From Ruicaihuangia caeni (GTDB taxonomy: Bacteria; Actinomycetota; Actinomycetes; Actinomycetales; Microbacteriaceae), in assembly GCF_029952955.1 (NCBI RefSeq), contig NZ_JASATX010000001.1, forward strand, positions 372,001 to 436,000: a stretch of 64,000 nucleotides of DNA, given 5' to 3'. The notes beneath the pieces are model-generated. The model was not told the DNA's origin. It saw only the letters and a list, made by a program, of their open reading frames with translations, and did not search any database. Position numbers and translations under genes: made by a program. How positions within the stretch are numbered: the first letter of the stretch is position 1; every line of letters begins with the position of its first letter. Shown piece by piece: positions 4,371-8,956 of the stretch.

Positions 4371-5060
4371 ATGTGCACGTGGTCCGTCGTGCTGCCGGTC
4401 AAGGGTTCGCTCGGCAAGTCGCGCTTGCTGCTCGACGACCCCGGGGCACGCGCACGGCTCGCGGTCGCGTTCGCACTCGACACGATCGCCGCGGCATCCG
4501 CTGCGCGTCAGGTGGAGCGCATCGTCGTCGTGAGCGCCGATGCCCGCCTGCGTGGGGCCTTGCGCGGAGTCCAGGTGGTCGAAGACCCGCTGACCGGGCT
4601 CAACGCGGCCATCCGGGCGGGTCTTGAAGCGCTGGAAGGCCGGCGGCCCGCCGCTGTGCTCCTGGCGGATCTGCCGGCGTTAGCGCCCGGCGAGCTCGAT
4701 AGCGCGCTCGAGGCGGCCTCGAAGCATCCCCTCGCCATGGTCCCGGATGCCGCCGGCACCGGCACGACGCTGACCACGGCTCTGCGCGCAGACGCGCTCG
4801 TGCCGCGGTTCGGCAAGGGATCGCGCCGCGCGCACAACTCGGCAGGACACCTCGAGCTCGATGTGTCGCCGACATCCGGCCTGCGCCGCGATGTCGACGA
4901 CCTGGCCGACCTGGAAGCCGTCGCCCTCCGCGCCGGCGTGCACACCCGAGCGGTGCTCTCGTCGCTCTCCGGCGTCACCGCGCCCACGGCCGCACCTTCA
5001 GCGCAGGGCTCGTTCGAGCCGTCCGAGATCACGCCCGAAGGCCCGCTGCTCGCAAGCTGA
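4371..5060 (+). CDS. cofC: 2-phospho-L-lactate (phosphoenolpyruvate) guanylyltransferase, F420 biosynthesis
   Basis: A 229-residue nucleotidyltransferase of the CofC/FbiD family. It activates 2-phospho-L-lactate (or phosphoenolpyruvate in actinobacteria) with GTP, giving the donor that CofD transfers to FO. Family features are the N-terminal VVLPVKGSLGKSRLL, the central VVEDPLTGLNAAIRAGLEA and LLADLPALAPGELDSAL, and the late FGKGSRRAHNSAG. It runs convergent to cofD with 6 nt between the stop codons, so the two F420-0 genes are adjacent but not co-transcribed. The start codon sits 8 nt after a -10-like TAGGCT, suggesting a leaderless or near-leaderless mRNA. Confidence 0.9.
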   Translation: MCTWSVVLPVKGSLGKSRLLLDDPGARARLAVAFALDTIAAASAARQVERIVVVSADARLRGALRGVQVVEDPLTGLNAAIRAGLEALEGRRPAAVLLADLPALAPGELDSALEAASKHPLAMVPDAAGTGTTLTTALRADALVPRFGKGSRRAHNSAGHLELDVSPTSGLRRDVDDLADLEAVALRAGVHTRAVLSSLSGVTAPTAAPSAQGSFEPSEITPEGPLLAS

Positions 5061-5066
5061 CCGCGA

Positions 5067-6059
5067 TCAGCCGAGCGCCACCGCAAGCGCGTCGCGCGCG
5101 ATCGCCGCCGACTGCTCGAGCGAGCTGAGATACAGCGGCCGGGCGACCGCGCGCATTCCCTCCGAATCGAGTTCGGGCACGACGGCGGAGTCGACGGTGT
5201 CGACGAGCCAACCATCGAGCAACCCGCCGTCGACGCGGGCGCCGTAGTGTCGCGCCACCGCGGCAGCCGACACGTCCACGTCGACCGCTGCCAGGCACTG
5301 CGCGGCCATGCCTCGCACGGCGGCACCGCCGATGATGGGGGAGACGCCGACGATCCGCGCGGAGGATGACACGACGGCATCCCGCAGCCCAGGCACACCG
5401 AGGATGGTGCCGATCGACACGACCGGGTTCGAGGGAGCGAGCAGCACGGCGTCGGCTGACGCGAGCGCGCCGAGCACCGACGGAGTCGGCCGAGCACGGT
5501 CGGCACCGACCTGCTCGAAGGCGAGGGCGGGAAGCGCTGCGCGGTGGCGCACCCACCACTCCTCGAAGTGCATGGTGCCCTGCTCGGTGACCACGTGCGT
5601 CTCGACAGGATCATCGCTCATCGGCAGCAGCGATACCCCGAGGTCCCATCGCGCGGCCAGGCGCGCGGTCGCCTCGGTGAGCGTCGCGCCTTCGCGCAGC
5701 CAGCTCGTGCGGGCGAGGTGCGTGCCGAGATCGAGATCGCCGAGCGTGAACCACGGCCATCCGGCGCCGTAGGCGGCGAGCTCGGCCGAGACGCGCTCGC
5801 TCTCACCCGCGCGTCCCCATCCTCGCTCGGCGTCGTTGACCCCGGCGAGGGCGTACATGATCGAGTCGAGGTCGGGGCAGACCCGCACCCCGGCGAGCCA
5901 CAGATCGTCTCCGGTGTTCGTGATCACGGAGATCGTCGCCTCAGGTGCGACCTGGCGCAGGCCGCGCACGAACTTGGCGCCGCCCACTCCGCCCGCGAGC
6001 ACGGCGATCCTGAGCCTCGAGGCGTTCGGCACCGATTCCGACCTGTGCCCGGCGTTCAT
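5067..6059 (-). CDS. cofD: 2-phospho-L-lactate transferase (FO to F420-0)
   Basis: A 330-residue CofD/FbiA homologue that transfers the (enol)phospholactyl moiety to FO, forming F420-0. Diagnostic stretches: N-terminal LAGGVGGAKFVRGLRQVAP, VITNTGDDLWLAGVRVCPDL, LARTSWLREGATLTEATARL, and SNPVVSIGTILGVPGLRDAV. Its start overlaps the stop of the ABC ATPase gene by 4 nt, so it is the last gene of a leftward operon with the F420-0-type importer. FO synthase (fbiC/cofGH) and the glutamate ligase cofE are not in the window. Confidence 0.92.
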   Translation of the reverse strand: MNAGHRSESVPNASRLRIAVLAGGVGGAKFVRGLRQVAPEATISVITNTGDDLWLAGVRVCPDLDSIMYALAGVNDAERGWGRAGESERVSAELAAYGAGWPWFTLGDLDLGTHLARTSWLREGATLTEATARLAARWDLGVSLLPMSDDPVETHVVTEQGTMHFEEWWVRHRAALPALAFEQVGADRARPTPSVLGALASADAVLLAPSNPVVSIGTILGVPGLRDAVVSSSARIVGVSPIIGGAAVRGMAAQCLAAVDVDVSAAAVARHYGARVDGGLLDGWLVDTVDSAVVPELDSEGMRAVARPLYLSSLEQSAAIARDALAVALG

Positions 6060-6892: not shown

Positions 6893-7929
6893 GCCGAACG
6901 CCGCCTGGCCAGCAGCAGGGCGAACACGGGCGCGCCCACGATGGCGGTCACGATGCCCACCGGCAATTCCCGCGGGTCGAACAGCGTGCGCGCCGCGGTA
7001 TCGGCCCAGAGCAGCACGATCGCCCCCGCGAGCGCCGAGAGCGGCAGGAGTGCGCGGTGGCGCGAGCCCGTCAGCAGCCGCACCGCGTGGGGCAGCACGA
7101 GTCCGATGAATCCGATCGAGCCGCTGACCGACACCATCGCGCCCGTGAGCAGCGCGGTGGCGGCGAGCAGCACCCACCGAGTCGCGGTGACGTTGACACC
7201 GAGCGCGGATGCTGTCGCGTCGCCGAACGCGAAGCTGTCGAGCGCTCCGCCCGAGAACAGCACAGGAACCCCCACCACGAGCAGCGCGACGCCCGCGATC
7301 GCGACAGTCGTCCATGTCGAGCCGGCGAGTGAGCCGAGCAGCCAGGCGAGGATCTCGCGAAAGGAGTCGCCCGTCGCCGACCAGAAGATGACAAGACTCG
7401 TCACCGCCGACGCGAGGGCCGAGACCGCGACCCCGGCGAGCACCGTGCGTGTCGGCGTCACGCCGCCGGCGGCGCCGGCGAGCAGCAGGGTCGCGATGAG
7501 CGCTGCGAACGCGCCTGCGAAGGCCGCCACGGGCAGCAGGATGCCGAGGCCCAGCAAGAGAACCCCCACCGCGCCGAGCGAGGCACCCGATGAGAGCCCC
7601 AGCAGGTACGGATCGGCGAGCGCGTTTCGAGTGAGCGCCTGCATCACGGTGCCGCTGATCGCGAGGCCCGCGCCCACCGCAGCCGCGGTCAGCACCCGAG
7701 GCAGTCGCAGCTCCCAGACGATGCCGTCGCGCAGCGCGTTGAGCGGACTGTCACCGAGGCCCAGGTGCGAGGCCACGCTTCGAAGCACCTCGTCGGGGCG
7801 AAGATCAGCCGCGCCGAAGCAGATCGCTGTCACCACTGAACCGGCGAGGGCGACGAGCAGCACAATGCCCCACGCAAGCGCCAGACCGCGGTCGCGGCGG
7901 GCGCTCGGCATCCGGGCGGCCGACCTCAT
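6889..7929 (-). CDS. FecCD/BtuC-family ABC permease, putative F420-0/deazaflavin importer
   Basis: A 346-residue polytopic permease of the type that forms a dimer with about ten helices per subunit. Family landmarks are LRLPRVLTAAAVGAGLAISG and the coupling-region stretch ALTRNALADPYLLGLSSGAS. The ATG at 7929 lies 5 nt past the stop of the binding-protein gene; an alternative in-frame start at 7965 would overlap that gene by 32 nt and add 12 polar residues. It is the middle gene of the binding protein-permease-ATPase-cofD operon. Confidence 0.86.
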   Translation of the reverse strand: MRSAARMPSARRDRGLALAWGIVLLVALAGSVVTAICFGAADLRPDEVLRSVASHLGLGDSPLNALRDGIVWELRLPRVLTAAAVGAGLAISGTVMQALTRNALADPYLLGLSSGASLGAVGVLLLGLGILLPVAAFAGAFAALIATLLLAGAAGGVTPTRTVLAGVAVSALASAVTSLVIFWSATGDSFREILAWLLGSLAGSTWTTVAIAGVALLVVGVPVLFSGGALDSFAFGDATASALGVNVTATRWVLLAATALLTGAMVSVSGSIGFIGLVLPHAVRLLTGSRHRALLPLSALAGAIVLLWADTAARTLFDPRELPVGIVTAIVGAPVFALLLARRRSA

Positions 7930-7933
7930 CCGC

Positions 7934-8956
7934 TCAGCCGATGCCGAGTTCGCCGAGTTGCGCAACGACCGAGGCGACTGCCTCCACCGACCGCACTCCC
8001 GCCTCCCCGGCCGCGAACGGCACCACCACGAAGCGGTCCCGCCTGACCGCGGTGAGTTCAGCGGTCACCGGGTTCGACTTGAGCAGCTCGATCTTCTTCG
8101 CCGCGGTGTTCCACGAGGCATCCACGAGCACGATCACGTCGGGATCGGCTTCGATGACGGATTCCCAGCCGAGTGAGGTCCAGGTGTCCTCGATGCCCGC
8201 TGCGATGTTCTCGAGGCCGGCGGTCTCCATCACGAGCTGTGGCGCGCCGATTCCGGCACCGACATAGGGGGTGTCCGATCCCGATGAGTACCAGAGCGCC
8301 GTGAGGCCGGCGGTCGACGGCTCGATGTCAGCGAGCCGTTCGCGCTGCTGATCGATCAGCTCGGCGGCCTCCGTCTCTGCACCGAACACGTCGCCGGCCT
8401 CCGCGATCTCGTCGAACAGCACGTCGAAGGTGAGCTTCTCCGGCTTGTACTCGGGCGCCTTGCACGCCGAGGGGGCGACGTAGGTGCCGACTCCGAAGCT
8501 CGCGAGCGTGGCTCGTTCGCCCGCCGCATCGGCGGTGAGGTTCGACTCCCAGCCCGCGAACACGAAATCGGGTTCCAGGTCGAGCACCGCCTCTTGGCTG
8601 GGCGCGAAGTCGCTGATCACTGGGATGCCCGCGGCATCGTCGGCCCACTGCTCGGGCACCGGACCGTCGAGGAACGCGGCGCCGACGATGCGGTCGCCGA
8701 GGCCCAGTGCCAGCAGCAATTCGGTCGTCGTCGATTTGATGGTCACCACGCGCTGCGGTGGATGGTCGAGTGCGACCTCAACGCCGCAGTTGTCGGTGAC
8801 TGCGGGCGCTGCGGCGTCGCCTGCGTCCGGGTTCGAATGCGCGGGCGCGGACGCGCACCCGGCTGTCAGGGCGATCAGCGAGGCAAGCGCGAGCAGCCCA
8901 GAGGCCCTGCGACCTCGGGGAGTGAACGATCGGTCGAAGGATGGGAGAAGCGGCAT
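7934..8956 (-). CDS. ABC substrate-binding lipoprotein, putative F420-0/deazaflavin importer
   Basis: A 340-residue periplasmic-binding-type lipoprotein. The start at 8956 is preceded by TGGAG at proper spacing and gives a clear lipoprotein signal peptide ending in LTAGC. The mature part has the BtuF/FecB fold features RVVTIKSTTTELLLALGLGD and SNLTADAAGERATLASFGV. First gene of the leftward operon with the permease, the ATPase and cofD. The fold is shared with cobalamin and siderophore binders; F420-0 or FO is suggested by the neighbours and by the known actinobacterial cassette of this architecture. Confidence 0.85.
   Translation of the reverse strand: MPLLPSFDRSFTPRGRRASGLLALASLIALTAGCASAPAHSNPDAGDAAAPAVTDNCGVEVALDHPPQRVVTIKSTTTELLLALGLGDRIVGAAFLDGPVPEQWADDAAGIPVISDFAPSQEAVLDLEPDFVFAGWESNLTADAAGERATLASFGVGTYVAPSACKAPEYKPEKLTFDVLFDEIAEAGDVFGAETEAAELIDQQRERLADIEPSTAGLTALWYSSGSDTPYVGAGIGAPQLVMETAGLENIAAGIEDTWTSLGWESVIEADPDVIVLVDASWNTAAKKIELLKSNPVTAELTAVRRDRFVVVPFAAGEAGVRSVEAVASVVAQLGELGIG

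Follow-up and report, generated by a model that had tools for sequence, protein, structure and literature searches.

An importer cassette beside the genes for F420-0 synthesis

The window analysed here is a stretch of 64,000 nucleotides from the actinobacterium Ruicaihuangia caeni (C1:372001-436000 of genome G000; contig NZ_JASATX010000001.1), which carries the three genes of an ATP-binding cassette (ABC) importer next to genes for the synthesis of cofactor F420 from the deazaflavin FO. On the minus strand, the genes for a substrate-binding lipoprotein (substrate-binding protein, SBP), a permease and an ATPase are followed by cofD, and cofC converges on cofD with the gene ends 6 nt apart (Table 1). 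These coordinates, at 4371-8956, agree with the overlapping or abutting arrangement described in an earlier note on this DNA. The ATPase and cofD genes overlap by 4 nt, as do the permease and ATPase genes, and the ATG option for the permease start at 7929 abuts the SBP stop. The SBP preprotein has 340 amino acids and a lipobox, LTAGC, with its cysteine at Cys34. Together, the FecCD-type permease, the Peripla_BP_2 SBP and its matching fold characterize a type II (BtuCDF/FecCD) ABC importer. The local order reads oxidoreductase, cofE, moxR, DUF58, tgpA and cofC, all on the plus strand, facing cofD, ATPase, permease and SBP, all on the minus strand.

The genome (2,666,317 bases in 10 contigs, 98.7% complete) contained one match each for cofD, cofC and cofE, the cofD gene being its sole PF01933 match (E≤0.001). 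For the FO synthase FbiC, no cofH and no cofG match was found at E≤0.001, in a cofG search that detected six of six positive-control genomes; the F420 biosynthesis pathway was thus complete except for FO synthase. Judged from this assembly alone, an fbiC gene in a contig gap is possible. This explanation was set aside, as its congeners G001 and G002, both assembled into one contig and 99% complete, had the same gene content and also no FbiC. The combination of cofC, cofD and cofE with no fbiC match is the one that the earlier note had named as strongly favouring FO import. Its other suggestion, a cell that both salvages and makes the cofactor, does not fit this FbiC-less genome and fits two others described below (G389 and Myceligenerans pegani).

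Because of this gene content and gene order, the lack of an FbiC match, the mutual exclusion with FbiC, the selection acting on cofC and cofD, and the SBP positions that track the presence of these two genes (cofCD), the cassette is probably a BtuCDF-like importer that supplies FO in place of FbiC, with cofCD-less relatives using F420-0. That FO itself is the molecule carried is what we infer from this comparison of sequences.

Distribution of the importer and of FO synthase

SBP, cofD, cofH, cofE and cofC were searched in 199 Microbacteriaceae genomes; the family was assigned by inference, from SBPs at the loci of named Leifsonia, Compostimonas and Pseudolysinimonas that were identical to those of members of this sample. 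Matches were counted at E≤1e-20 for cofD (89 genomes, 86 over cut-off; G010, G114 and G212 partial) and cofH (45 genomes, 12 over the 374-bit cut-off and the others at 147-332 bits, five of which were confirmed as FbiC via cofG), and at E≤1e-10 for cofE (110 genomes, 109 over cut-off) and cofC (90 genomes, 76 over cut-off). The strict transporter set comprised 59 genomes: 57 with an SBP of at least 325 bits (55 over cut-off), G065, in which the SBP match fell into two pieces of one frame, and G023, whose SBP was split over two contig ends. Another 19 genomes with a weaker SBP homologue (113-233 bits) were scored as without transporter. In G010 (86% complete), cofD was matched in two pieces in different frames (L044, 7145-8121) and may be broken or misassembled.

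The family genomes carried FbiC with cofC, cofD and cofE (45), transporter with cofC, cofD and cofE (39), transporter with cofE (20), cofC, cofD and cofE (5), cofC and cofE (1), or none of these genes (89). Strict transporter and FbiC occurred together in none of the 110 cofE genomes (Fisher 1e-24), and cofE was present in all 59 strict-transporter genomes (hypergeometric 3.5e-20), both values being uncorrected for kinship. Furthermore, 59 of the 65 FbiC-less cofE genomes carried the transporter. The 20 transporter genomes without cofC and cofD therefore need F420-0 or a later form, and the 39 with both genes would therefore be fed by FO. The suggestion of the earlier note that the cargo is FO gained comparative support for the window cassette, whose gene content is that of 39 of the 199 family genomes, but does not extend to the cassette family as a whole: where cofC and cofD are missing, its orthologues have to provide F420-0 or a later form. 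The two groups are separated by a four-site SBP score described below.

An unrelated cargo, such as a siderophore, haem or cobalamin, placed beside F420 genes by chance, would be in keeping with a fold common to the binding proteins for all three and with the status of the NCBIfam F420-0 annotation, which is only 'hypoth_equivalog'. The unbroken tie to cofE and the exclusion of FbiC by the strict transporter speak against it, as does an Rfam scan of the window that gave no match at gathering threshold, leaving this explanation very improbable. Cobalamin, haem and siderophores were set aside on the Rfam result and the tie to cofE.

Both kinds of genome occur within single genera: g21, g52, g67 and g99 each include species with FbiC and species with the transporter. 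The neighbourhoods of four FbiC genomes (L095-L098; two from g52, one from g67) contained cofD, cofE and the oxidoreductase and no transporter; cofC was found there by tblastn in three of the four and by a separate cofC search in the fourth (G182). At 16 cofCD-less loci, the oxidoreductase, cofE and transporter were kept and cofC and cofD were gone, and a tblastn search of 34 cofCD-less loci, many of which are short, found no remnant of either gene (best E 0.8).

An order-level sample of 218 genomes was searched for the transporter, cofD and FbiC. The strict transporter was counted in 52 genomes (50 over cut-off, two at 353 and 382 bits) and cofD in 88, all over cut-off. Left out were nine weaker cofD matches (79-151 bits) and the weaker SBP matches (208-294 bits) of G257, G254, G244, G031 and G309, the last four of which each have a cofH match. 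Among the order genomes outside the family, 44 had the transporter, 47 had FbiC and one (G389) had both; the transporter was accompanied by cofD without FbiC in 19 and lacked cofD in 24. Beyond its positive controls, the cofG search, which covered 80 genomes, gave no match over cut-off in the 39 family genomes with transporter and cofCD, in six orphan genomes (with neither FbiC nor strict transporter) or in the 19 order-level genomes. It gave one such match, in Myceligenerans pegani (G415), among ten genomes tested from the 23 cofD-bearing members of a blind set described below; six further genomes had weak matches of at most 27 bits.

Selection on cofC and cofD, and FO entry without the importer

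cofC and cofD are under purifying selection in close pairs of FbiC-less relatives. With one genome serving in two pairs, eight close pairs of FbiC-less transporter genomes gave dN/dS values (NG86) of 0.05-0.34 for the two genes in 15 comparisons, similar to those for cofE and the transporter. The known acceptor of CofD is FO, which must therefore reach the cytoplasm of these FbiC-less cells.

Several observations weigh against an importer that simply stands in for FbiC. Two genomes had an FbiC match together with the transporter, G389 (cofH; L141) and Myceligenerans pegani (cofG; L165). FbiC was also present in five of the 19 weaker-homologue genomes (G042, G072, G093, G155 and G178), so that five family genomes hold both if these are counted. 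Conversely, five family genomes had cofC, cofD and cofE and neither FbiC nor strict transporter (L090 G017, L091 G043, L092 G069, L093 G167 and L094 G177), and 12 order genomes had cofD and likewise neither of the two. In genomes of this kind FO, if used, therefore enters by another route; no alternative transporter between cofD and cofC was noticed by eye at L090 and L093 (two of the five loci), with no family scan run. In addition, spent medium of the wild type made a Streptomyces venezuelae fbiC mutant fluorescent, and the same paper describes FO as diffusing (PMC12282290). As a separate observation, the SBPs of G389 and Myceligenerans pegani both scored as FO-type.

These data raise the alternative that the cassette imports F420-0 in all genomes and that cofC and cofD act on FO that has entered by diffusion. 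FO has been described as diffusing out, the fbiC mutant gaining its fluorescence from spent medium (PMC12282290), and yeast equipped with cofC, cofD and fbiB made F420 when the medium contained 72 mg/L FO, with import that its authors considered possibly inefficient (PMC10949242). The five family genomes that keep cofC, cofD and cofE without FbiC or strict transporter would fit as well. Nevertheless, passive entry leaves unexplained both the shift of SBP positions with cofCD status and the presence of the transporter in so large a share of FbiC-less cofE genomes, and it appears improbable as the general explanation.

SBP residues track the presence of cofC and cofD

A tree was built from 94 SBPs (92 with permease), 60 from cofD-bearing and 34 from cofD-less genomes. 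All family transporter genomes but G023 and G208 are represented (57 of 59), together with three further members of the family and 34 of the 44 transporter genomes at order level. The cofCD state changed at least 12 times on the transporter tree, at least eight of the changes being forced by starred branches; shuffled labels averaged 27.9. Eight sister contrasts were fixed from the tree before columns were inspected, and 295 SBP columns were compared. Positions 287 and 291 (preprotein numbering) were completely different in seven of the eight contrasts, position 117 in six and position 280 in five; two other columns also reached five, without a shared direction. Position 117 was Lys or Arg in 31 of the 34 cofCD-less SBPs, and among the 60 cofCD-bearing SBPs it was Lys in 10, Phe in 21 and Gln in 16. 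Lys or His occupied position 287 in 28 of 34 cofCD-less versus 3 of 60 cofCD-bearing SBPs, and both positions were basic in 27 of 34 versus 1 of 60. Since sign tests on independent starred-branch pairs had only five pairs, with which 0.05 is unreachable (no pair ran in the opposite direction), a tree simulation was added. None of 5000 simulated histories reached the basic-residue difference (observed 0.77 and 0.75; 95% point of the maximum 0.44), and none of 500 matched the observed mutual information. The permease was rejected as the specificity site, the largest mutual information of its columns being 0.27 versus 0.73 in the SBP.

F420-0 consists of FO and a phosphodiester-linked lactyl group, so basic residues would be plausible in a receptor for it. 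The window SBP has Phe117, Ala280, Lys287 and Leu291, the cofCD-bearing pattern at three of four sites. Its four-site score was -3.3 to -3.4, on the FO side with or without relatives in the training set and outside the cofCD-less class (score >0). The SBPs of its congeners read Phe-Ala-Thr-Leu and Phe-Ala-Ser-Met at these sites.

Prediction of the cofCD state in new genomes

The four sites had been chosen on the same 94 SBPs, where the score classed 92 correctly, or 89 when relatives of at least 70% identity were left out. A genome contig scan yielded 80 loci, with cofD in the flanks of 39 and fbiC in the flanks of none. Four-site predictions were recorded first for the 66 SBPs that were less than 99% identical to any training SBP, and a whole-genome cofD search then covered 33 of the 34 genomes whose flanks showed no cofD. 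The score was correct in 28 of these 33 (Fisher p 4e-4, kinship uncorrected). cofD was present in 20 of the 22 genomes predicted to have it (the misses being the Cryobacterium loci L151 and L186) and absent in 8 of the 11 predicted to be without it (misses L181, L201 and L225); 13 of the 20 correct predictions of presence came from Promicromonospora, Isoptericola and Cellulosimicrobium. At 32 loci with cofD in the flanks, where the status was known before prediction, two SBPs were misclassed (L184 and L190).

The link between SBP and cofCD state thus holds in new genomes as well, mostly via site 291, which was Val, Tyr or Ile in 7 of 10 cofD-less versus 0 of 23 cofD-bearing genomes (p 3e-5). 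The other sites gave 7 of 10 versus 7 of 23 for a basic residue at 117 (p 0.057), 3 of 10 versus 1 of 23 for Ser at 280 (p 0.07) and 3 of 10 versus 3 of 23 for Lys or His at 287 (p 0.34).

As with the exceptions in gene content, part of this outcome counts against the proposed FO import. The success of the score came mainly from one site. A 'both basic' rule for sites 117 and 287, recorded alongside it, was correct in only 22 of 33 genomes, with both sites basic in 2 of 10 cofD-less versus 3 of 23 cofD-bearing genomes (p 0.63). This rule was dropped as a stand-alone predictor. The reading of the two sites in terms of charge and phosphate was left unconfirmed by the new genomes and is weaker than the association itself. 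Moreover, Lys287 of the window SBP is atypical for its class and typical of the cofCD-less class, and this residue may leave room for some F420-0 binding.

A receptor for the deazaflavin head that accepts both FO and F420-0, so that loss of cofC and cofD merely narrows the diet, would accommodate these findings. It would also agree with the persistence of an orthologous transporter through all the changes of cofCD state, with Lys117 in some cofCD-bearing SBPs, with the failure of the basic pair to separate the 33 new genomes, and with BtuF, which binds both a precursor and the full cofactor (PMC5269720). A fully dual receptor, however, predicts no residue shift, whereas four sites shift among the 94 SBPs and the score built on them carried over to new genomes. 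A dual-cargo importer is thus rather unlikely, although the residue shift is compatible with a receptor that is partly dual.

Proposed pathway and implications

Under the preferred explanation, import of FO, FO released from FO-making neighbours would be captured by the lipoprotein and brought in by the FecCD-type permease and the ATPase. CofC would then supply a phospholactyl (or phosphoenolpyruvyl) group, CofD would transfer it to FO to give F420-0 or dehydro-F420-0, and CofE would add glutamates to yield F420 for oxidoreductases, for example those whose genes flank the cluster. After loss of cofC and cofD, the receptor would serve F420-0 instead. Some uptake without the importer is also assumed, given the five family and twelve order genomes with neither FbiC nor transporter. 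A supply of FO is conceivable: the fluorescence of S. venezuelae spent medium was mostly fbiC-dependent and, according to the authors, possibly due to FO (PMC12282290), and Mycetohabitans supernatant contains FO (PMC11104420). More broadly, the data tilt somewhat towards a history in which FO synthase was repeatedly replaced by an FO importer across Microbacteriaceae and related families, and in which lineages that lost cofC and cofD re-tuned the same SBP to F420-0 at few positions, one of them matching the cobinamide/cobalamin site of BtuF.

NCBIfam already names a three-gene F420-0 importer. What appears to be new is that one class of this importer would carry FO and take the place of FbiC, and that SBP positions track FO versus F420-0 users. 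A literature search for F420 or FO import found no paper, most subscription papers lying outside that search; a 2021 FEMS review uses the word 'transporter' a single time, in connection with an endosymbiont's putative exporter (PMC8498797). If the proposal is correct, FO would be a shared nutrient with its own importer, a traded vitamin, and many annotated F420 users would become FO auxotrophs. A few-site rule would allow the cargo to be read from sequence, and importer parts would be available to supply FO to engineered F420 hosts, whose yield is suspected to be held back by poor FO import (PMC10949242).

Neighbouring genes

Table 1 Features of the F420 locus in the window and to its left
Feature	Position	Strand	Model match or remark
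cofC, 2-phospholactate (or phosphoenolpyruvate) guanylyltransferase	4371..5060	+	TIGR03552 129 bits, cut-off 105; ATG/TGA
cofD	5067..6059	-	TIGR01819 337.5 bits, cut-off 257
Importer ATPase subunit (BtuD-like)	6056..6892	-	Best family TIGR03873, 336 bits, under cut-off 372.4
Permease subunit (BtuC/FecCD type)	6889..7965 (TTG) or 6889..7929 (ATG)	-	TIGR03869 483.9 bits, cut-off 437.35; PF01032 298 bits
SBP, substrate-binding lipoprotein	7934..8956	-	TIGR03868 467.1 bits, cut-off 392.4; PF01497 88 bits
SBP Phe117 codon	8606..8608	-	Tracks cofCD state; Lys/Arg in most cofCD-less relatives; aligns with BtuF Trp66
SBP Ala280 codon	8117..8119	-	Tracks cofCD state; mostly Ala with cofCD, mostly Ser without
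SBP Lys287 codon	8096..8098	-	Tracks cofCD state; mostly Ser/Asp/Gln with cofCD, Lys/His without
SBP Leu291 codon	8084..8086	-	Tracks cofCD state; Val/Tyr/Ile common in cofCD-less relatives
cofE	Left of window, locus L040	+	TIGR01916 243 bits, cut-off 181
F420-dependent luciferase-like monooxygenase (LLM) oxidoreductase	Left of window, L040	+	TIGR03557 290 bits, cut-off 210
MoxR-like ATPase gene, right-hand part	33..689	+	By eye; 348 aa in L040:7644-8690

The TIGR03557-type oxidoreductase scored 215 bits against the Fgd model TIGR03554, below its cut-off of 420. The moxR, DUF58 and tgpA (transglutaminase) genes, all named by eye, lie at 33-4359 of the window (L040 7644-12357) and are also found beside cofE or the importer in many relatives; the MoxR-like gene between cofE and cofC is probably outside F420 function. 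Divergent from the SBP gene, positions 9270-12581 carry genes for a nitrilase-family amidase, a dihydropyrimidinase-like protein (by eye) and an LLM oxidoreductase, perhaps a cluster for pyrimidine or hydantoin breakdown; this oxidoreductase matched TIGR03842 strongly (574 bits) and is likely an F420 user. In G157, two cofE genes lie within 4 kb (C3:53302-53982 and 56200-56892; L076).

Comparison with known systems

The window cassette is closest to the putative F420-0 ABC transporter of NCBIfam, a three-gene actinobacterial cassette (TIGR03868, TIGR03869 and TIGR03873). Its SBP and permease exceeded the curated cut-offs; its ATPase remained under that of TIGR03873, which was by far its best family. 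Both cassettes are close to cofE and an F420-dependent oxidoreductase. The NCBIfam proposal, which names F420-0 as the cargo, reportedly rests mainly on genomes with cofE alone. Unlike that case, the window genome has cofD in the operon and cofC facing it, with only FO synthase not found, and its SBP scores with the cofCD-bearing class, whereas the NCBIfam name says F420-0. FO salvage is also said to have been proposed for Dehalococcoides, which keeps cofC, cofD and cofE without FO synthase; we know of no transporter linked to it.

An AlphaFold model of the SBP (54 sequences, pLDDT 93.5) was nearest, among solved structures, to a periplasmic binding protein of Jonesia denitrificans (4mlz; Z 39.6, root-mean-square deviation 1.4 A over 287 residues, 50% identity). 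At the four sites, 4mlz has Arg/Ser/Lys/Ile, the cofCD-less pattern, versus Phe/Ala/Lys/Leu in the window SBP, and Jonesia is presumably without cofC and cofD.

The B12 importer BtuCDF of E. coli shares the subunit plan and, in BtuF (1n2z), the SBP fold (Z 21.7), but differs in cargo, and SBP identity is about 19%. Profile alignment (hhalign) with E. coli BtuF, on which the cleft placement of the sites rests, put site 117 on W66 and site 280 at about residue 217; plain MAFFT addition gave the loop of site 117 another position, and the hhalign alignment ends before sites 287 and 291 are reached. Sites 280, 287 and 291 would sit in or beside the segment matching BtuF 217-232, which forms a helix in the cobalamin complex and cannot be seen in the cobinamide complex (PMC5269720). 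When BtuF binds cobinamide, W66 moves into the space of the missing base; this residue sets the cobinamide affinity, tight binding needing W or F at position 66 (PMC5269720). By analogy, Phe117 might pack on FO where Lys or Arg would hold the phosphate of F420-0 in relatives, the most tentative step of the proposal. An aromatic residue for the smaller precursor, as found in many FO-type SBPs, is nevertheless a suggestive parallel to BtuF W66.

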